A DNA stretch of 64,000 nucleotides from positions 1 to 64,000 of IMG/VR virus record IMGVR_UViG_3300035703_004076. One strand, given 5' to 3'. Source of the DNA: a virus. Positions 2,247 through 63,642 of this stretch are shown piece by piece. How positions within the stretch are numbered: position 1 is the stretch's first letter; every line of letters starts with the position of its first letter. The notes below the pieces were generated by a model. The model ran no database searches. It saw only the letters and a list, made by a program, of their open reading frames with translations, and was not told the DNA's origin. Both the position numbers and the translations under genes were made by a program.

Positions 2247-3959
2247 CTAAAAATCTTCGTCAAAATCAGCATCAAACATCGGGTCTCGATAGAAACCATT
2301 TGAGCCAAACGGAGACTCAGTGTGCTCCCAAACGGTGCCGTCTGCGTCTTTGAACGTCTTTGTGGAGCTGCCATCTTCAATGAATCCAAATGGAAGTAGC
2401 TGTTCTTCCATGTTTGCTGACTTCTCTTCGTAGAGCTTCTTTCTTACATCTGTGTCTGTAATCTCTTTGAATAGCTGCTGGCTCGTCAACCACGAGAAGA
2501 TAACGAGACACGCTACTAGATCGTCGTGACAGCCAGGCTCTGCGGCAAATGAAGAGTGTGTGGCAACGTATGATGTAAGCTCGCAGATAGTATCAAAGTC
2601 TGTGATGACAAGTTTGTCGTTTTCCAAAAGTCCTTTGAGATTTGAACACCCAATCGCTTTGATTTGAATTGTGGTTTTGACACCGAGCTTTGAGTTCTGC
2701 TTAAAGCCAGATGAGAGTTTCTGACCACCACGCCCCATGTTTGTTGTGGAAAAGATAGACTCATATTCAAGATCGTCATGAAGTGTTTGAGCTACCTGAG
2801 AGCCGATTGAGTTTGTCTCGATGAGAACGTGAGCGTCGTTATACTTTCGTGCTACGTTGTAAATCAAGTTTGGATACAACATTGGCGTTATTTGACTGTT
2901 GTAGTATTTCGCCACGAGCTTATATGGCACACTCGTACAGTCCATCACACAAAACGCTGAGTGGTCTAAATTTTGACCCTCTGCTGTATCAACTGCCATG
3001 ACGTACACATGATCTTTCTTTGGGGCTTCGTAAATATGCAAGTCACCAATCTTCTCCGCTGGGTCAGTCCAAGCCATTGTACTTAATTTCGCTGAACTAA
3101 TGAGAGTGTTCGCCGATCCAAGAAAGTCACATCCAAACTCTTGATTGAACTTGTCTTGTCCAAGCTGTTTGATTTGATCTTGTGCCCACGCTTCGTCCCT
3201 GCCGGGCACCACACTCCAGTGAGCTTCTATCGGCACGTAAAGATTGCGCTTGTTGACAGCATCCATCCAGTACTTGTAGAACAAGTTCATTCCGTTCGGC
3301 GTAGACACCATAATCACTTTCGTCGTTGTACCTGAAGAAATCGTAGGATACACAGACGTAATGAACTCTTCTGCGATGTTCTTGGGAACGAACGCAAACT
3401 CGTCTAAGAAGATAATGTTGTAAGTGCTACCTCGTGCTGCCGATGATGCTGTAGCGGCTGCGATGACTTTACTACCGTTCTCAAGCTCTATTGACCCTTT
3501 GTTCCATGACAGAATACCTTGCTGCATCCACAGGGGAATGTGCTCATACGCTAACTGTAGTTTTGCTAGAATATCTCGTGCTGTACTCGCTTTGTTCGCT
3601 AAGATTGCTATGTTCTGCATTGGCCCGAACAGTACCGTCCAGAGAATGTACCCAATCGTGACAGTCGATTTTCCAACTTGGCGAGGAAGTTTCGCTATTG
3701 TAAAGCGATTGTTGATGTATGAGTTGAGTAGTTCTTCTTGAAACGGATACAAATCAAACGGCACAAGCCCACGATCAACGTGTACTATTTTCATATACTT
3801 CTGAATAAAGTATATGGGATCTTTCATACACTTAATGCGCTCTTGAATCTGCTCTTTTGTAAAGACAAACGTGACGCCAGCAGCTTTGAGGTTAGGATTG
3901 CTCTTATAGCTCTTCATGCCGTCTGGCACGATCTGCTGAAAGTTCGTTTCGCTACTCAT
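2247..3959 (-). CDS. 17: Terminase large subunit gp17
   Basis: This is the ATPase-nuclease motor that packages DNA into the prohead through the portal. At 570 residues it is a little shorter than T4 gp17 (610). Walker A is LPRQVGKST at residues 91-99 and Walker B is IIFLDEF with acidic pair D186-E187. VSTPNG near 209-213 fits the coupling motif. In the nuclease half, MAVDTAEG gives D324, VLIETNSIG gives E381 and CHDDL gives D479-D480, matching the metal-binding acidic triad of the family. Its start overlaps the end of gp16 by 8 bases, which suggests translational coupling. The gene order 16-17-18 is that of T4. Confidence 0.97.
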   Translation of the reverse strand: MSSETNFQQIVPDGMKSYKSNPNLKAAGVTFVFTKEQIQERIKCMKDPIYFIQKYMKIVHVDRGLVPFDLYPFQEELLNSYINNRFTIAKLPRQVGKSTVTIGYILWTVLFGPMQNIAILANKASTARDILAKLQLAYEHIPLWMQQGILSWNKGSIELENGSKVIAAATASSAARGSTYNIIFLDEFAFVPKNIAEEFITSVYPTISSGTTTKVIMVSTPNGMNLFYKYWMDAVNKRNLYVPIEAHWSVVPGRDEAWAQDQIKQLGQDKFNQEFGCDFLGSANTLISSAKLSTMAWTDPAEKIGDLHIYEAPKKDHVYVMAVDTAEGQNLDHSAFCVMDCTSVPYKLVAKYYNSQITPMLYPNLIYNVARKYNDAHVLIETNSIGSQVAQTLHDDLEYESIFSTTNMGRGGQKLSSGFKQNSKLGVKTTIQIKAIGCSNLKGLLENDKLVITDFDTICELTSYVATHSSFAAEPGCHDDLVACLVIFSWLTSQQLFKEITDTDVRKKLYEEKSANMEEQLLPFGFIEDGSSTKTFKDADGTVWEHTESPFGSNGFYRDPMFDADFDEDF

Positions 3960-5399: not shown

Positions 5400-6238
5400 T
5401 AGAAGTCTTCCTCAGAAAACGGATTGTGTTCAGTGAAGTAAATGACAGAGTTTTCATCAAACTCTTTGTTTTGCCCTTCGTGTGCATCTTCTTCAACGTT
5501 TGCTGTAAGAGCATACTCAGCGTTTTGACCTTTAATTGTTCCGTGCTGAATGTCAAAGTCTCCAAAAACATCTTTTAGAGTGAGATGTCCATCGTGATAC
5601 GAGACAACAATTCCTTTTGCGTGTGCTCCAATAATTGACTCACCTTGATATGCAACTTCGCCAATCTCAAACTCACCTTCACCTTCACTAAGGTCTATTG
5701 CCAGGTGTTGTTCACCTCGTGTGCCAACATCATCAACTTCATCGATGCCAGTCTTAATATCTTCATTAGCAGGCGCAAACAACTCGCACTGTAGATCGTA
5801 TATGTAGAACTCACCAAGATTAAAGAATACGCTATCTTCTTTCACAAACTTGATTTCATAGAGACCAGTCGCAGTGCTCATTGGTAAGTATATGAGATCA
5901 CCCTCTCGTGGTCGAATGAACTCTTTGCCAAGTATTTTGTGAAAGCTCGACCGTGATACAGAGAATGTGATTTGATTGTTAATCTCAAGACCAAACTTTT
6001 TGAAGATGTCTTGATCGCCATCAAACGAGTCGATGTTTTTCACATACACTTCGAGAATGTGATAGTCATTGAAGTGTGCAAGCACATCTTCTCGAAACAC
6101 AGCGTCTATCTTCTCTTGTTTTCTTGGAATGTACACAGCATTGATGCCGTGTATCTTTACGGCTTCTTCTACTAGCTGTTGAACGAGCTGTTGTTCGTTT
6201 TTTTGGTGATAGAGATTGAAATACTTGTTTGTTGCCAC
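5399..6238 (-). CDS. 14: Neck protein gp14 (head completion)
   Basis: This 279-residue protein is the neck protein gp14 (T4: 256 residues), which with gp13 completes the head after packaging and forms the tail attachment site. The start MATNKYFNLYHQKNEQQLVQ and the region VYIPRKQEKIDAVFREDVL follow the marine T4-like gp14 pattern. A long acidic region follows (about residues 155-270), containing GEGEFEIGEVAYQGESIIG, which suggests a small beta-rich insertion. It starts 4 bases after the gp13 stop and overlaps gp15 by one base, so the neck genes form one translational block. Confidence 0.88.
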   Translation of the reverse strand: MATNKYFNLYHQKNEQQLVQQLVEEAVKIHGINAVYIPRKQEKIDAVFREDVLAHFNDYHILEVYVKNIDSFDGDQDIFKKFGLEINNQITFSVSRSSFHKILGKEFIRPREGDLIYLPMSTATGLYEIKFVKEDSVFFNLGEFYIYDLQCELFAPANEDIKTGIDEVDDVGTRGEQHLAIDLSEGEGEFEIGEVAYQGESIIGAHAKGIVVSYHDGHLTLKDVFGDFDIQHGTIKGQNAEYALTANVEEDAHEGQNKEFDENSVIYFTEHNPFSEEDF

Positions 6239-6241
6239 ATT

Positions 6242-7480
6242 CTATCCTACAATAAAATCTGGAGGTAACTGAAACTCTTTCTTGATGCGTTCTTTAAGAA
6301 CATCAAGCTCTGCTTTAGCTTCATCGTAGAGTTGTTGTCCGTTTAGTGTTACGCCACCGGGCAGCCCAATACCACTAAACTTCTTCATGTTTGTGCCCCA
6401 CTGAAGTTTAATGAGCGCACACGCATACTCACGAACGAATTCGTCCATGTAAATTTCTTTGTATGTTGATGGATCGAGCGCAACCCACGCTTCAAATATG
6501 ACGTACTGATCTACAGTCCAGTCTTGCAAGTCAAGAAACACTTTGTCAGTTTTGCGATTGAAGCGAATGCCTTTTGTTCCACGAAACATGAACTCCCATG
6601 TGGAGATGTATCGCTTGTATATGTCATACGTCACAAGATCCGTCGATGCAAGATTGAACATATTGTGAAGTGCAAACTGATACTGAAAGTCAAACATTCC
6701 ACCTAAGTTTCCGCCGATTGTCGATGACTGTTGAGGAATGACGTTTGTAACGCTGATGACTTTTTGATCTAGTGTGACATACTTGTTGTCAACATCACCA
6801 AACGTTGATTTAAGAACTTTTGCTTTTTCCGTTTGACCAGAAACAGAGACGGTTTCTCCTTCTTTGAACGCTACGCCGTTGGTTGATTTGAAACGTATGA
6901 TTCGATTATCAACGGTTTTGTCGTATGCTGTTCCTGTTGCGCCACTCTCATCACCTACTAATACAACACCACGAATAACATCTGCTGTATAGTCTGTTTC
7001 TAGCTTGAGGGTCGATGCAGTAATTCTGTGTTTAAGATAGCACCGTTCAACACCATCAAAGTGATAGTCTCGAAAGTACATAAGTGCTTCATCAATACGA
7101 TCTTCTACTTGATCGTCGTCTACGTTAATTTCTATAACTGGTGCACCAAGTCTGCGTAAACACCAATGAATGAGTTCTGTTCGCCCTAAGTTTGATGTGA
7201 TTCCATCAGAGTCTACTGAGTTGTCTGTAGAATCAAAAACATCAAGAAGGTAACTGACAAGAATAACATCTCCAGTCTGTGGAGGAACAGTAAATGTTAT
7301 CACTGCGCCTGCAAGAACGTAGTCATTTGTTTCTTGTTGTGATGATGCGTTTTGCAGAACACCGTTCAAAAACACTTGCTCAGTGTTTGGGTTTGGTATA
7401 TTTGCCAAAGTGAATGTAGTGTTTGTTGAGTCTATTGGCCCCGTAGGTTTTTCTCTACAAACGAATGACTGTGTTGGCAT
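6242..7480 (-). CDS. 13: Neck protein gp13 with an extra N-terminal fibre-type module
   Basis: Residues from about 95 to 412 match neck protein gp13: GRTELIHWCLRRLGAPVIEI, DDDQVEDRIDEALMYFRDYHF and DQYVIFEAWVALDPSTYKEI are typical, and the gene directly precedes gp14. T4 gp13 has 309 residues, so this one is about 100 longer. The surplus is at the N-terminus: residues 8-88 (TFTLANIP, EQVFLNGVLQ, FTVPPQTGDVILVSY) form a small beta-module that also occurs in the nearby fibre genes at 17452-19680 and 19801-22371 and in the 29301-38189 protein. A neck protein carrying a fibre module is unusual and could give an extra binding surface at the collar. That function is inference. Confidence 0.88.
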   Translation of the reverse strand: MPTQSFVCREKPTGPIDSTNTTFTLANIPNPNTEQVFLNGVLQNASSQQETNDYVLAGAVITFTVPPQTGDVILVSYLLDVFDSTDNSVDSDGITSNLGRTELIHWCLRRLGAPVIEINVDDDQVEDRIDEALMYFRDYHFDGVERCYLKHRITASTLKLETDYTADVIRGVVLVGDESGATGTAYDKTVDNRIIRFKSTNGVAFKEGETVSVSGQTEKAKVLKSTFGDVDNKYVTLDQKVISVTNVIPQQSSTIGGNLGGMFDFQYQFALHNMFNLASTDLVTYDIYKRYISTWEFMFRGTKGIRFNRKTDKVFLDLQDWTVDQYVIFEAWVALDPSTYKEIYMDEFVREYACALIKLQWGTNMKKFSGIGLPGGVTLNGQQLYDEAKAELDVLKERIKKEFQLPPDFIVG

Positions 7481-49741: not shown

Positions 49742-51538
49742 TTATTTTATTTGTTTTGTTAGCAATCCACACAGCTCGCTTATTTGTTGTGTGGTTGGGG
49801 TTCCTCTAAAGTCTGTGTTTATTGACACACCCGATATGACGGTCTTTTCGCTCGTCTTTGCTAACGCCTGTATTTGTGAAAAATACTTCGACAACTCAGG
49901 CAACACAATGTTGAGCGATTTGCTTCCATTCTGTAATGATGTCGTAGCGTAGTTAGAACATCCATACAGTCTGTTGCCTGGTGTTCTCAGCACGAACTGA
50001 ACTCGTGATGATGTAATGTTCGATGAGAAGCCAGAGACGGCAAGAGTTGTTGTCTGTTGTGGCGATGCTACGCTAGGACTAAACACCACCTTGGGGTTTG
50101 GCGTAGGCGTCATCGTAGCTGTTGGTGTTGATGTGCTCGTACTTGTCGGCGTCATCGTAGCTGTTGGTGTTGGGGTTGCAGTCGCCGTAGGTTGTGGAGT
50201 GAATGTCACACCAGGTTCAGGTGTATTTGTAGGTGTTGATGGCACTGCTGTAGGTGTAGGACTTACACAAACATCCCTTGCTGCATACACAGACCCTACT
50301 GCATTTGCCAGAGACGCTGTTGATACTTTATTCTGAAGTGTGGGTAATTTTAGACCGTTGTTAAGTATAGCGCCACGCAAGTCTGACAACGAAAGATCGC
50401 ACACTGATTCTGTGAGCACTGCAAGCCCCGTTACATGAGGTGCTGCCATTGACGTGCCGCTCTTGTAACCATATTTGTGGTTTAGTATTGCACTCAAAAT
50501 GCCAGATCCTGGTGCTGCAATATGTACAGTCGAGCCGTAGTTTGAGAATGATGATAGTGAGCCGGTCGATGTTGATGATGCTACCGATATGACGTTACTG
50601 GCTTGATAGTTTGCTGGATATGATGGGTACACATCATTATTACGAGCACTGTTGCCTGCTGATGCAACAAACAAAATACCTTCGCTCTCTGCGAGCTTGA
50701 TTGCATCGAGAAATGGTTTTGAGAACGCACTAGATCCATACGAATTGTTCATCACGACAACTTTATGGCCAGCACGTTTGAGTGCAACGCCATAGTTGAT
50801 TGCACGAATAGCATTAGCTGAACTTCCGGTACCAGATGATGATAAGAACTTCATGCTAACCAATTTTACTTTGTGTGTTACGCCTGCAATACCGATGGTG
50901 TTGTTTGCTGCTGCCCCAATAATTCCCGCAACATGAGTGCCATGTCCATTGTCGTCTACGCCAGAGCCAATCCGTGTAATAGCATTAATGCCATGAACAT
51001 CGTCGATGTAGCCGTTGTAATCATCATCAATCCCATTGTTTGGCACTTCTCTCGTATTTACCCAGATGTTTTGTGCTAAGTCTGGATGATGAACTTCAAT
51101 TCCCGTATCAATAACGAGAGCTAACAAATCCTCTTTACCTGTTGTAACATCCCACGCACTAGGAGCTGCCATTAATTGAGGACCATACTGATAGCTGTAG
51201 TATACATCATTCGGCGTTTCGGTAATTGCAAACACATCGTTAGCTACACAGAGTATTCTGCCTTTTGATGCTTTTTGTATTCTGCGTATGCTTGCTTTTC
51301 TGCACAGAGACGACGAGCGACTGTATATCCGAGGAACGACACTAGACTCTCGCTTGTCTTTTATAAACACTGACTTGTCAGACAAACTTTCGTATGTCAA
51401 ATTGCCAAACTTGTGAGATGCAACGTTCACGCCACGAGTTGATGTTAGAATAACACCAGAATAGACACTCTTCTGCTCTGCGCTTGCTGTTGATATGACA
51501 AGAAGGCTTGCTGCAATAATCTTCACGAACTTTTTCAT
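49742..51538 (-). CDS. Secreted subtilisin-like (S8) serine protease
   Basis: This 598-residue protein is a subtilase. A signal peptide MKKFVKIIAASLLVISTASA is followed by a propeptide-like region to about 105. The catalytic triad is D144 (LVIDTGIEVHHPDL), H199 (GHGTHVAGIIGA) and S363 (GTSMAAPHVTGLAV), with the oxyanion Asn at 296 (ASAGNS). A Thr-Pro-rich linker (about 430-490, repeats like TPTATMTPTPNP) leads to a small C-terminal domain. I chose the ATG at 51536-51538, which has GGAG 9 bases upstream and places the signal peptide at the very start. It has its own promoter (51577) and terminator-like hairpins (51616), like a moron. It would be exported by Sec and act on surface or external proteins. 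Confidence 0.93.
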   Translation of the reverse strand: MKKFVKIIAASLLVISTASAEQKSVYSGVILTSTRGVNVASHKFGNLTYESLSDKSVFIKDKRESSVVPRIYSRSSSLCRKASIRRIQKASKGRILCVANDVFAITETPNDVYYSYQYGPQLMAAPSAWDVTTGKEDLLALVIDTGIEVHHPDLAQNIWVNTREVPNNGIDDDYNGYIDDVHGINAITRIGSGVDDNGHGTHVAGIIGAAANNTIGIAGVTHKVKLVSMKFLSSSGTGSSANAIRAINYGVALKRAGHKVVVMNNSYGSSAFSKPFLDAIKLAESEGILFVASAGNSARNNDVYPSYPANYQASNVISVASSTSTGSLSSFSNYGSTVHIAAPGSGILSAILNHKYGYKSGTSMAAPHVTGLAVLTESVCDLSLSDLRGAILNNGLKLPTLQNKVSTASLANAVGSVYAARDVCVSPTPTAVPSTPTNTPEPGVTFTPQPTATATPTPTATMTPTSTSTSTPTATMTPTPNPKVVFSPSVASPQQTTTLAVSGFSSNITSSRVQFVLRTPGNRLYGCSNYATTSLQNGSKSLNIVLPELSKYFSQIQALAKTSEKTVISGVSINTDFRGTPTTQQISELCGLLTKQIK

Positions 51539-51576
51539 AACCATAATCTCCATTGTAGTAATCGCACCTACATTGG

Positions 51577-51582
51577 AGTATA
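51577..51582 (-). promoter_or_regulatory. Extended -10 promoter (TGCTATACT) for the protease
   Basis: The minus strand reads TGCTATACT, a TGn-extended -10 hexamer (TATACT at 51577-51582), about 40 bases before the protease ATG. No good -35 hexamer is seen at 16-18 bases. It lies between the upstream terminator-like hairpin and the gene, so a separate host-type promoter is likely. Confidence 0.6.
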
Positions 51583-51615
51583 GCACGAAACGTGGTTCCG
51601 CAAAGAAAAAACCAT

Positions 51616-53808: not shown

Positions 53809-54042
53809 TTACTTTCGTGCTTTTGTCGCTTTGCGAAACGGCACAACCTTTGCACTCTTCTTCGCTGCTTTCTTTGTCGTCTTTGCAGTATGTTTTGTGC
53901 ATGATGTCGTAGCGTTACGTCGAGTTACAGCACTTACTGCCTTTGCTGCTGCGTGTGCTACTGCTCGTACTGTAGTGGTTACTGCGCCAGTTACTGCGTG
54001 TACTGTAGCTGCGACGGCTCGTGTTACTGCGTTTGTTGCCAT
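53809..54042 (-). CDS. Ala/Lys/Thr-rich histone H1-like basic protein
   Basis: This 77-residue protein is built from Ala, Val, Thr, Lys and Arg. The first half is an amphipathic Ala-rich repeat (AVTRAVAATVHAVTGAVTTT), and the second half is strongly basic (KHTAKTTKKAAKKSAKVVPF). The composition resembles the C-terminal tail of histone H1 and bacterial H1-like proteins, which condense DNA. I chose the ATG at 54040-54042, 1 base after the upstream stop. It may bind phage or host DNA or act as an internal head protein. Low complexity makes homology arguments weak. Confidence 0.7.
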   Translation of the reverse strand: MATNAVTRAVAATVHAVTGAVTTTVRAVAHAAAKAVSAVTRRNATTSCTKHTAKTTKKAAKKSAKVVPFRKATKARK

Positions 54043-54043
54043 A

Positions 54044-54262
54044 TTACTTATCTTCTCCAAATGTTTTAGCTGCGTTGAGAATGCCTTCAGTAACGAGTGC
54101 TACGTCATTCAAAAAATGGTGGCACACTACAGGACCGTCGGCAGAACCTCGAACGACGGCTGCGGCTCGTGTCTGTAACTGTATCAGGGCTACTTGCTTA
54201 AACAGCTCTGTACGTTCAGTACGCTCTCTTACGTCTCGTGGTTTCTTTTTCTCTTTTGACAT
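54044..54262 (-). CDS. Hypothetical small basic protein
   Basis: This 72-residue protein starts MSKEKKKPRDVRERTERTEL and continues with a helical, Ala-rich part (VALIQLQTRAAAVVRGSADG). I do not recognise it. The ATG at 54260-54262 is preferred over a start four codons earlier. The sigma70-like promoter at 54270 would give an almost leaderless transcript, so either start or promoter position could be off. It is coupled to the Ala/Lys-rich gene with a 1-base gap. Confidence 0.62.
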   Translation of the reverse strand: MSKEKKKPRDVRERTERTELFKQVALIQLQTRAAAVVRGSADGPVVCHHFLNDVALVTEGILNAAKTFGEDK

Positions 54263-54374: not shown

Positions 54375-54428
54375 AAAAAGGAGGATCGTCTTTGGAAGTT
54401 ACTTCTATTAAACTTTGTTCGGTCCTCC
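54375..54428 (-). terminator. Intrinsic terminator ending the small late operon
   Basis: On the minus strand GGAGGA-C-CG pairs with CG-A-TCCTCC (6 bp, one mismatch, 2 bp) across a 31-base loop and is followed by TTTTT. It lies in the 230-base gene-free stretch downstream of 54506-54826. A weaker second hairpin (CAGAAC/GTTCTG, about 54311-54330) follows. Nothing else is seen in this gap except the promoter at 54270. Confidence 0.65.
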
Positions 54429-54505
54429 TCCACACTTAAAACGCATTTTACGACACAAGTGCCCTTTTCTCGGCTACTAAACTTTTCTCGTCGATTTGGT
54501 TTTCC

Positions 54506-54826
54506 TTACTTGCGGAGGTTCTGAACGGCGTTCTGTAATGCCTTCATCGCTGCGTCGAACGTGCTGAACTCACCTACTGTACGGCTTACTGGGCGCCGAA
54601 TTTTCAAACGGCTGTCTCTGTAGCTACAGTTGAGGTAGGCGATGTAACGGTCTCGTGAATTGGGAATTATGTCTGGCATTCCTTCATGGAAGTCAATGTG
54701 ACCTACCATCTCACTGCCTGCGAATACTAGCTTTCTATTGCCGGCTGAATTGAGTGTGTGGAATGGTTGCTCTGCGTGGTCTTTACGGGCGATACCTTCT
54801 TGTAGGTAGGTCTTGAAGGACTTCAT
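54506..54826 (-). CDS. Candidate internal head protein with capsid-targeting-like N-terminus
   Basis: This 106-residue protein starts MKSFKTYLQEGIARKDHAEQ. The first ten residues resemble the T4 capsid-targeting sequence (MKTYQEFIAE in internal protein III), and YLQE-G fits the gp21 prohead protease consensus of Leu/Ile-x-Glu before a small residue. The rest is a mixed alpha/beta domain (RKLVFAGSEMVGHIDFHEGM, FDAAMKALQNAVQNLRK) without a known family. Its ATG overlaps the stop of the 54823-55452 gene by 4 bases, and it is the last gene before the terminator. Packaging in the head is inference. Confidence 0.72.
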   Translation of the reverse strand: MKSFKTYLQEGIARKDHAEQPFHTLNSAGNRKLVFAGSEMVGHIDFHEGMPDIIPNSRDRYIAYLNCSYRDSRLKIRRPVSRTVGEFSTFDAAMKALQNAVQNLRK

Positions 54827-55452
54827 GCACTGAGTAGGTCTTTGATGATGGTGTTTATCAGTATCTCGGCATCACTGTGCTGGCTGGTTTTCACGGCGTC
54901 GGTAAGCTCGTCTACGTTGTCTAGTATGCGGCGCTTCTTGATGGAAGAAATGTCTGATAGGTAGTCTATGTCACTCCATATCTGGTCGATTTCGTCGAGT
55001 ATTTTGGCTTTGTTTGGGGAAAGGTTACCAAGCTCGGCCAGTCTGTATGCGAGGTCTTGGCGCTTCTGATGGCTTTCTGTGATATTGACACTCTCTTCTA
55101 CGCCACTGAGATTGTGGAGAATGTCGAGGATATCTTCTATCTGGTACTTGATGTCCAGTAGGTCGTCGTGGCCATCATTCTCGGCAAAATCGAGGTCTGT
55201 CAATACACTGTGTAATAGGAATTCGAGTGAAACCTTACTTGGTGGTACGGGCCGTTTGTATGACGGATCGGTCTTGAGTAAGTTCTGTGCTGCTACAAGG
55301 CTCTGTGCTGCGAAGTGTGGGTTCGAGTCAGTGATTTTGTCGTGTGCTTTTCGGACGAGGGCAAGGGCCTTTGGTGCGACGGACGATTGCTCATTAAGCT
55401 GTCGTTTCGGACTCTTGTTGGCGATATACTGTCTAAACTGCTTGATGTCCAT
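54823..55452 (-). CDS. Candidate internal head protein, helical
   Basis: This 209-residue protein starts MDIKQFRQYIANKSPKRQLN-EQSS. The pattern of a short amphipathic helix, basic residues and then QLNE-Q resembles a capsid-targeting peptide with a gp21-like site after about residue 21. The remainder is a predicted all-helical domain (LVRKAHDKITDSNPHFAAQS, KYQIEDILDILHNLSGVEES, DEIDQIWSDIDYLSDISSIK). AGGA lies 6 bases before the ATG. It sits in the four-gene unit between the late promoter at 56088 and the terminator at 54375. Function is unknown. Confidence 0.72.
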   Translation of the reverse strand: MDIKQFRQYIANKSPKRQLNEQSSVAPKALALVRKAHDKITDSNPHFAAQSLVAAQNLLKTDPSYKRPVPPSKVSLEFLLHSVLTDLDFAENDGHDDLLDIKYQIEDILDILHNLSGVEESVNITESHQKRQDLAYRLAELGNLSPNKAKILDEIDQIWSDIDYLSDISSIKKRRILDNVDELTDAVKTSQHSDAEILINTIIKDLLSA

Positions 55453-55459
55453 AATGTTC

Positions 55460-55741
55460 CTATTTAGTGGTAAACTCTACTCGTACCAGGTGGTAGTTGA
55501 TTGTTGGATACTTGACGGTGCCATGTGCTGACTTGATGCTTGTGATTCTGACGGCTTCTGGAATCTTTAGTCTGAGGGCTCTCAAGCAAGCTCGTCTGGC
55601 GTAGCGGTTATAGGCAGCTTCTGGTACAAGTAGCGTGGCGTCGCCTTTTGGATCTCCCTTCTTGTACACTATCTGACACACTTTGCCTGGATCTGTGGTT
55701 TCGGCAAAAAGAGTGCTTTTGATGGCGTCGAGGATGGCCAT
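55460..55741 (-). CDS. Hypothetical protein of the small late operon
   Basis: This 93-residue protein starts MAILDAIKSTLFAETTDPGK. The FAE-T site is a degenerate version of the protease site seen in its neighbours, so membership in the same group is uncertain. The core is basic (AAYNRYARRACLRALRLKIP) with a beta-type end (VKYPTINYHLVRVEFTTK), which could bind nucleic acid. It lies 4 bases after the 55746-56063 gene and 7 bases before the next. Confidence 0.68.
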   Translation of the reverse strand: MAILDAIKSTLFAETTDPGKVCQIVYKKGDPKGDATLLVPEAAYNRYARRACLRALRLKIPEAVRITSIKSAHGTVKYPTINYHLVRVEFTTK

Positions 55742-55745
55742 GGGA

Positions 55746-56063
55746 CTACTGTATGTAGAAGTTCAGCTCGTAGCGGCCATTGTCCATTCGGTAAATCTGA
55801 ATGTGCAGTAGCTTGCGTTGTGGCTTTCCACCTTTGGTAAGTTCCAGATGGTAGTCTTTGGTCTCACCAGCGTATGGCTTATCACCAGTAGTAATCTTGT
55901 TGAACTCCTCGTCTTCTGATACTTCGTAGCCCTGCTTTCTTGTGGCGGCGAGAGCCGTCTGTATAGCTGAGTGAAGCGTATCGTGGAGAACGGTATAGCT
56001 CGCTTCTGCTATAGGTCGTTTGGTTGCTTTGAGCAAGTGGCGCCGAAATTGATTCATGTCCAT
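55746..56063 (-). CDS. Candidate internal head protein heading the small late operon
   Basis: This 105-residue protein starts MDMNQFRRHLLKATKRPIAE, then ASYTV. PIAE-A is a perfect match to the gp21 cleavage consensus, after a 20-residue amphipathic basic helix like T4 capsid-targeting peptides. The mature part has a helix (DTLHSAIQTALAATRKQGYE) and a beta-sheet end (RKLLHIQIYRMDNGRYELNF). I chose the ATG at 56061-56063 because GGGAG lies 8 bases upstream. The late-promoter-like element at 56088 gives a leader of about 20 bases. Late expression and the targeting peptide agree with virion packaging, which remains untested. Confidence 0.74.
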   Translation of the reverse strand: MDMNQFRRHLLKATKRPIAEASYTVLHDTLHSAIQTALAATRKQGYEVSEDEEFNKITTGDKPYAGETKDYHLELTKGGKPQRKLLHIQIYRMDNGRYELNFYIQ

Positions 56064-56087
56064 AGTAAACACTCCCTTGGGTATTGG

Positions 56088-56095
56088 TATTTATG
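56088..56095 (-). promoter_or_regulatory. Late-promoter-like element (CATAAATA) for the small late operon
   Basis: CATAAATA on the minus strand is one base off the T4 late element. Transcription would start about 56082, just before the GGGAG ribosome site at 56071-56075 of the first gene. It separates the upstream small-gene cluster from the candidate internal-protein genes. Confidence 0.55.
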
Positions 56096-63228: not shown

Positions 63229-63642
63229 CTACACACCTTTTAAGTCTGGATACAACACGTCAATCAAGCTACTTACGCTATCTTCTGTGTCGGTGTTTGT
63301 CTTGTTGAGCGTTCGTGCTATCTGGTTATGAGTAAGTTGTGGATACTGTTTGCGTACTGCATCTGATACGTTCTTCATAGCGATGGCATAGTTTGATCCA
63401 GATGTGATGTTGAGCTGTGATGTGTGTGATAAGTGTGTTGTAATCAGTGTTTTTATCAGTTGACGTAAAGTTTGATAATCGTGTGTTCTGGCTTTGAACT
63501 GTTGTAGAAACTCTTGTGCTGCTTGTGGATTGGACTGTTCGAGTTGCTTGTATCTGTTCTTGGCTGCGAGGTTACGGCCTAGTATCTCTCCTGGCTCAAG
63601 AGCTTCTGCGAGTGTGGAAATGTACTGCGTAAAGCGTTTCAT
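63229..63642 (-). CDS. Candidate internal head protein with capsid-targeting-like N-terminus
   Basis: This 137-residue protein starts MKRFTQYISTLAE, then ALEPGE. The pattern MK.F..YI followed by LAE-A matches the T4 capsid-targeting sequence and gp21 cleavage consensus. The remaining 124 residues are helical and basic, Gln-rich (NRYKQLEQSNPQAAQEFLQQ, QTLRQLIKTLITTHLSHTSQ), and would suit DNA association. It resembles the candidates at 54506-56063 but stands 7 kb away. Function is unknown. Confidence 0.72.
   Translation of the reverse strand: MKRFTQYISTLAEALEPGEILGRNLAAKNRYKQLEQSNPQAAQEFLQQFKARTHDYQTLRQLIKTLITTHLSHTSQLNITSGSNYAIAMKNVSDAVRKQYPQLTHNQIARTLNKTNTDTEDSVSSLIDVLYPDLKGV

Follow-up and report, generated by a model that had tools for sequence, protein, structure and literature searches.

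In phage T4, experiment has established that the N-terminal leader of the internal proteins is both a targeting and a cleavage signal; Asp substituted for the Glu at the cut site is reported to prevent processing while leaving targeting intact (PMC9026906), and the same leader is shared by otherwise unrelated internal proteins (PMC9026906, PMC12373910). Among them, Ip1–Ip3 inhibit type IV restriction enzymes, the GmrSD variants (PMC12373910). Polyvalent proteins of phages and conjugative elements (PMC5512222) hold several cargo domains per chain and are predicted to be carried in the virion, with release proposed to be proteolytic, by embedded peptidase domains. In cyanophages, non-structural enzymes have repeatedly been found in virions, either carried or contaminating according to the authors (PMC10665884, PMC9602691). 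T4-like phages are widespread in water, and little of the content of their heads has been described. Should the leader rule hold for this group as it does for T4, its injected proteins could be read from sequence as leaders, cut sites and cargoes.

Here we describe a minus-strand operon of four genes in a 64-kb stretch (hereafter, the window) of a 68,180-base IMG/VR virus record. We regard it as likely that the operon serves a T4-like (Kyanoviridae-related) phage as a late cassette of genes for head cargo, with leaders that target the prohead and undergo gp21-type cleavage. From its genes, the operon appears to be a variant of the T4 internal-protein system. It resembles IPI, IPII and IPIII in its L/I-x-E cut sites, small cargoes, leaders common to unrelated mature proteins and variable cargo assortment. 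It differs in that no sequence relation of its cargoes to IPI–III was found, that two leaders have roughly double the length and a basic spacer separating the hydrophobic core from the cut site, that one gene appears to encode two cargoes with an internal site, and that all four genes lie in one operon. The T4 proteins are gp21-cleaved and capsid-targeted.

Operon layout and N-terminal leaders

The operon spans positions 54,506–56,063 of the window, and its genes follow one another in the order listed (Table 1); the first two intergenic gaps measure 4 and 7 nt, and the last two genes overlap by 4 nt. It is preceded by CATAAATA, which by its sequence is a late-promoter-like box. [T/C]ATAAATA occurs seven times on the coding strand of the window against about 2.6 expected, and once on the other strand against about 2.0 expected. 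A TTTCATAAATAC box also lies directly upstream of the operon's sister gene in the related contig G022. ORF positions, strand bias and the G022 box together confirm the late-promoter-like box and the four tightly coupled genes reported by the initial annotation; no TATAAATA-type late promoter was found near the operon of a second relative, G006, or near a five-gene array in G022. The intrinsic terminator claimed at the 3′ side of the last gene is plausible: a long imperfect hairpin ending in TTTTT does fold there, but a stricter terminator scanner did not list it.

In G022, a tRNA-like sequence immediately precedes the CATAAATA box of the leader gene (L051, upstream of 1948). Just downstream of the window operon, 53809–54060 (−) encodes a small, Lys/Ala-rich, histone-H1-like basic protein, and basic proteins occupy the same place in G006 (L046 10731) and G022 (L051 2789).

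Table 1 Features of the operon and of the window, with leader-to-cargo junctions of domain C relatives
Feature	Position	Strand	Description
Late-promoter-like box	56088..56095	−	CATAAATA; ~25 nt upstream of first ATG
Gene 1	55746..56063	−	Leader MDMNQFRRHLLKATKRPIAE, proposed cut before A21, then cargo domain B (85 aa)
Gene 2	55460..55741	−	Leader MAILDAIKSTLFAE, proposed cut before T, then cargo domain C (79 aa)
Gene 3	54823..55452	−	Leader MDIKQFRQYIANKSPKRQLNE, cargo D (residues 22–126), internal ITE/S site, cargo E (residues 127–209)
Gene 4	54506..54826	−	Leader MKSFKTYLQE, proposed cut before G11, then cargo domain A (96 aa)
Candidate intrinsic terminator	54378..54431	−	GGAGGA..TCCTCC hairpin, then TTTTT; core −12.1 kcal/mol
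Further candidate leader gene	63229..63642	−	MKRFTQYISTLAE then ALEPGE..; 137 aa
Domain C relative	L046 9130		VFKE/TADAGKV
Domain C relative	L048 12532		IFAE/TDDAGKV
Domain C relative	L048 9344		..KLFE/APQFDGKV
Domain C relative	L049 9693		..VLTE/APKYDGKV

An [L/I/F]-x-E site lies close to the N terminus of all four operon proteins; it is of the L/I-x-E type in three (LQE/G, LNE/Q and IAE/A) and FAE/T in the fourth. In 2,000 residue shuffles, no case arose in which all four carried [LIF]xE[AGSTQ] in the N-terminal region (0/2,000). The leaders and the mature starts G11, Q22 and A21 proposed by the initial annotation (MKSFKTYLQE/G, MDIKQFRQYIANKSPKRQLNE/Q and MDMNQFRRHLLKATKRPIAE/A) are correct as read. 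A further candidate leader gene, missed in the initial annotation, lies at 63229–63642 (Table 1); family searches with its product gave nothing above cut-off.

Leader length in the operon ranges from 10 to 21 residues, and three of the four share an F-x-x-[Y/H]-[L/I] core. MKSFKTYLQE fits the T4 targeting residues exactly (hydrophobic at 4, 7 and 8; Glu at 10), its F4, Y7, L8 and E10 standing at the T4-critical spacing of MKTYQEFIAE. The two long leaders (beginning MDIKQF and MDMNQF) keep F-x-x-[Y/H]-[I/L] and place the Glu about 8–9 residues further on than the short form; neither matches the short T4 motif exactly (MDMNQF was tested in the motif scan). MAILDAIKSTLFAE is a weaker leader that fits the T4 residues poorly, and its FAE departs from the strict T4 L/I-x-E rule. 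LxE also occurs inside cargo regions (for example, LAE and LDE in cargo E). Because the motif is short and common and is found within cargoes, not every site can be cut.

Modular leaders and cargoes among related phages

Public viral contigs were searched with the operon proteins, which yielded the sisters G006 (= L010/L046), G022 (= L048) and G023 (= L049) and the distant L047. A single leader, MDINLFRKSLASKQ, is common to six G022 genes and one G006 gene, with an LxE-type site at its end; five of the G022 genes are consecutive and the sixth is at the position matching the window operon. The mature parts of these G022 proteins lack significant mutual similarity (best E 0.35) and their leader DNA is 79–100% identical, in two codon versions, with up to 100% identity over 42 nt between genes. 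This near-identity indicates that leaders have come to sit on different cargoes by copying or recombination. A search of bacterial genomes found no instance of the shared leader.

Conversely, one cargo may stand behind several leaders. The leader ahead of domain A is MKSFKTYLQE in the window, MDINLFRKSLASKQGLLKE in L048 and MKSFRSYLNE in L049 9989–10294; L048 9974–10318 has the same cargo as window gene 4 (LKE/GVARKEHA versus LQE/GIARKDHA) but the MDINLFRKSLASKQ leader. Domain C is preceded, in the window or in relatives, by MAILDAIKSTLFAE, MSIISTLKEVVFKE, MLKALKHLIFAE, MDINLFRKSLASKQKKLFE and MDMKTFKEHLAKNSKKVLTE (junctions in Table 1). Behind these differing leaders, cargo homology begins at the predicted cut site or just after it, and the assortment of cargoes differs between relatives. 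At the level of sequence, leaders are thus modular and homology is aligned with the cut site. The initial annotation had likened these peptides to the capsid-targeting peptides of T4 that gp21 removes; that they are modular, sit on unrelated domains and end at the cut site supports this proposal.

Other proteins with similar starts were noticed. Leader-like starts are present on two L048 proteins (2493–3401 / 5581–6504); MKSFIEFSRQLDE begins an L048 protein weakly similar to zeta toxin / phrog_5268, and FLKSFRTFLDE begins an L048 protein with a HELTH metalloprotease-like motif. L059 (contig G003) 7960–12569 has several T4-type leaders (MRTFRQYITE/S, MKRFKVFITE/S and MKDFKTFINE/A), and the protein starting MKRFKVFITE/S also has an internal NLTE/A site.

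Gene 3 appears to depart from the one-leader, one-cargo arrangement. It has a second, internal site at ITE126/S127, overlooked in the initial annotation. Cargo E occurs as a stand-alone leader-bearing gene in G006 (L046 9978–10286; 62% identity, E 5e-35), and the homology starts at ITESH/LTESH; the G006 leader, MDINLFRKSLASKQKLLTE, is followed by S, so that the internal site of gene 3 aligns with the leader site of the G006 gene. Cargo D has a distant counterpart in a stand-alone leader-bearing G022 gene (L051 1948–2340; 26% identity including the leader, E 3e-4). A mirror case is found in G006, where L046 9419–9976 consists of a leader (..PITE/S), an extra domain, NITE/A and then domain B, which is a gene of its own in the window. 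The stand-alone cargo E of G006 and this mirror fusion show, as far as gene comparison goes, that cargoes fuse and separate at cut sites. Gene 3 thus probably encodes two cargoes in one chain and not a single one, with E found alone in G006 and D, distantly, alone in G022.

Two or more cargo domains per chain, as in polyvalent proteins, thus appear to be present in gene 3 (E strongly, D more weakly). It differs from those proteins in that it would rely on the prohead protease acting at LxE sites rather than on embedded peptidase domains, and in that no catalogued domain was recognised in it (no Pfam match above cut-off).

Domain B is widespread and recurs in hundreds of viral contigs. A scan based on an alignment turned up 276 stretches related to it, of which 80 were kept; L046, L047 and L068 are among the contigs with relatives. 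Of 50 distinct copies of domain B, 47 have an [LIVMF]xE no more than 12 residues ahead of it; the expectation, taken from the same proteins, was 12.0. This recurrence and the apparent two-cargo gene 3 with its ITE/S site go beyond the initial annotation. Many copies lie within long multi-segment proteins with several LxE sites. Sites on the C-terminal side followed domain B in 26/26 extended copies, a redundant set without a control, on which we therefore put no weight. The only cultured carriers found are Melnitz phages of Methylophilales. In Melnitz (MZ577097, locus tag _20), domain B comes after MDE/AKSSTGYELYHKDFSSA, as in the window behind a cut-like site; the Melnitz protein differs in being ~460 aa long, in several segments, and is annotated only as hypothetical. 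Domain B is also present in two MAG contigs with a phage-derived look.

None of the four operon proteins had a PHROGs or Pfam match above cut-off, and against a phage collection they gave only a chance-level mycobacteriophage match; alignment scans with domains A and C returned only the relatives already known. A DUF2247 match (22.7 bits, below the 25-bit cut-off) spans the proposed cut site and was set aside. Structure prediction gave a compact fold for each of domains A and B (pLDDT 85–91). The model of domain B comprises two helices and three strands (pLDDT 90.9); that of domain A has five strands and a C-terminal helix (pLDDT 85.4). Neither had a Foldseek match at E ≤ 0.001, and the best VIA Z scores (5.5 for domain B and 5.8 for domain A) are no higher than common arrangements reach. 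For domain A, a DNA-binding fold of the AP2-like or integrase-arm kind was considered; the matches (1gcc, Z 5.0; 3rmp, Z 4.9) are too weak to support it.

Prohead protease and competing interpretations

The window phage is a T4-like myovirus, with terminase, neck and baseplate genes that match T4-type families; its terminase is closest to those of cyanophages and a Pelagibacter phage, at less than 57% identity. The end of the window record cuts a tail-sheath-like gene (gp18), and the block that holds gp20, gp21, gp22 and gp23 in relatives is therefore missing from the record; the initial annotation overlooked that gp21 would lie past this truncation. The sister G006, with a terminase 77% identical to that of the window over the match, has genes homologous to cargoes B, C and E of the window. 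After its terminase come gp21, scaffold and capsid genes. Its gp21 homologue matches the PHROG head maturation protease (1.8e-84) and the T4 prohead protease structure 5JBL (3.1e-23), and on this homology gp21 co-occurs with cargo genes in this sister phage. The initial annotation had named the lack of a gp21-type protease in the genome as grounds against its proposal; the presence of one in G006, which has related cargo genes, supports the proposal. The G006 major capsid protein has an RGIITE/AVP site. Judged by N-terminal sequence, a gene of the same kind occupies the gp21 place in the other listed terminase relatives that extend far enough. The window phage thus very probably also encodes gp21.

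Another protease gene was seen in the structural region of the window, at 49742–51586 (−). Its product, a subtilisin-like protease of the S8 type (Pfam 3.6e-48), begins like a signal peptide and contains a Pro/Thr-rich stretch, and genes of similar start and length are in the same place in G006 and G022.

We propose that the N-terminal leader would dock each protein on the prohead scaffold core, and that a gp21-type prohead protease would then cut after the Glu and free the cargo inside the head; at ITE/S in gene 3 the same cleavage would yield two cargoes from one chain. The freed cargoes would remain alongside the packaged DNA and would probably be delivered into the next host. New cargoes would gain leaders by recombination, which would account for the different assortments in relatives. 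Of these steps, prohead targeting and cleavage are strongly inferred from the leaders and their sites, and retention and injection of the cargoes are inferred. A role of the cargoes against host defences is speculative; because T4 Ip1–Ip3 inhibit type IV restriction enzymes, counter-defence by analogy is a reasonable, if doubtful, guess.

The proteins could instead be components of the prohead core or scaffold, like T4 gp67/gp68 or gp22 fragments, which would be cut and then destroyed or expelled rather than injected. The scaffold protein (gp22) of G006 likewise has a basic segment near its start, ending IRE/S, and the many domain B copies in long proteins with several LxE sites would suit such a role. 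The cargo assortment, however, varies among relatives as that of T4 internal proteins does and unlike that of core genes, and compact folds are predicted for cargoes A and B; we consider a core or scaffold role unlikely.

Were the N-terminal resemblance coincidental, these would be ordinary late cytoplasmic accessory proteins with an amphipathic helix and a common L-x-E. The motif is indeed short, and of the window's 94 coding-strand ORFs of at least 60 aa, 14 have an N-terminal [LIF]xE[AGSTQ] (versus 3 of 104 on the other strand), but chance would hardly put one leader on unrelated proteins and one cargo behind several leaders, break homology at the site and place [LIVMF]xE at 47 of 50 domain B boundaries. 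Coincidence is thus very improbable. We give least credence to the idea that the shared leader serves mainly for recombination, or reflects recent gene duplication in G022, and plays no part in head targeting. The near-identical leader DNA of the G022 array is what such a history would leave; the leaders of the window, L049 and L068, however, keep the pattern at lower identity and end at [L/I/F]xE where homology begins, and the related T4 leader acts by experiment as a targeting and cleavage signal (PMC9026906). We therefore favour head-cargo genes with prohead-targeting leaders.

Leaders in cyanophage virion proteomes

All 219 genes of cyanophage S-CREM2 were translated and compared with the proteins detected in its published virion proteome (PMC10665884, Table 3), 'non-structural' meaning detected proteins outside the authors' structural list. 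With a loose leader definition (any [LI]xE with net positive charge), leaders were found in 6/28 detected versus 16/167 undetected proteins, which is not significant (P = 0.07). With a second motif, built from the T4 residues reported as needed for targeting and processing (PMC9026906), they were found in 6/28 virion-detected non-structural versus 6/167 undetected proteins (P = 0.0026); because this tighter motif was applied after the result of the loose test, we take the enrichment as supportive, not conclusive.

The six carriers are gp6, gp12, gp13, gp14, gp136 and gp154 of OR473000 (L154, L156), with the motif [FL]-x-x-F-[L/M/F]-x-E. They comprise a SAM hydrolase, a Cas9-like nuclease, an APH-like kinase, a cytidylyltransferase and two hypothetical proteins, so that all four detected proteins classed by the authors under regulation or DNA metabolism have leaders. 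S-CREM2 resembles the window phage in being a Kyanoviridae-type T4-like phage with T4-type leaders, which in S-CREM2 (F-x-x-F-[L/M]-x-E) stand on proteins detected in virions (PMC10665884); it differs in carrying large enzymes rather than small domains. A T4-type leader is a possible explanation for the presence of these six proteins in the virion, and, if true, the leader rule would offer an account of 'non-structural' cyanophage virion enzymes that mass spectrometry can test. A search of the S-CREM2 paper (PMC10665884) found no mention of a targeting peptide. In a literature search that most subscription papers fall outside, 'capsid targeting' with 'cyanophage' returned one T4 review only, and priority is uncertain.

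More broadly, aquatic T4-like phages may share a general platform for loading cargo. Polyproteins would be divided by gp21-type sites, so that a single targeted chain would yield, by cleavage within the prohead, several separate domains for injection; leaders would be interchangeable, domain B would be a widespread unnamed cargo module and the leader would explain the loading of the cyanophage Cas9-like nuclease and SAM hydrolase. We hold this wider view tentatively, at somewhat short of an even chance.

The cytidylyltransferase recurs in other cyanophages: its cluster, T4-GC190, was detected in S-SM1 virions (PMC3037559). At its annotated start the S-PM2 protein has no leader. The protein begins MKKFSAFLTE/A in P-SSM7 and MKSFFQFLSE/A in S-SM2, close to the MKTYQEFIAE/A with which T4 IPII and IPIII start.
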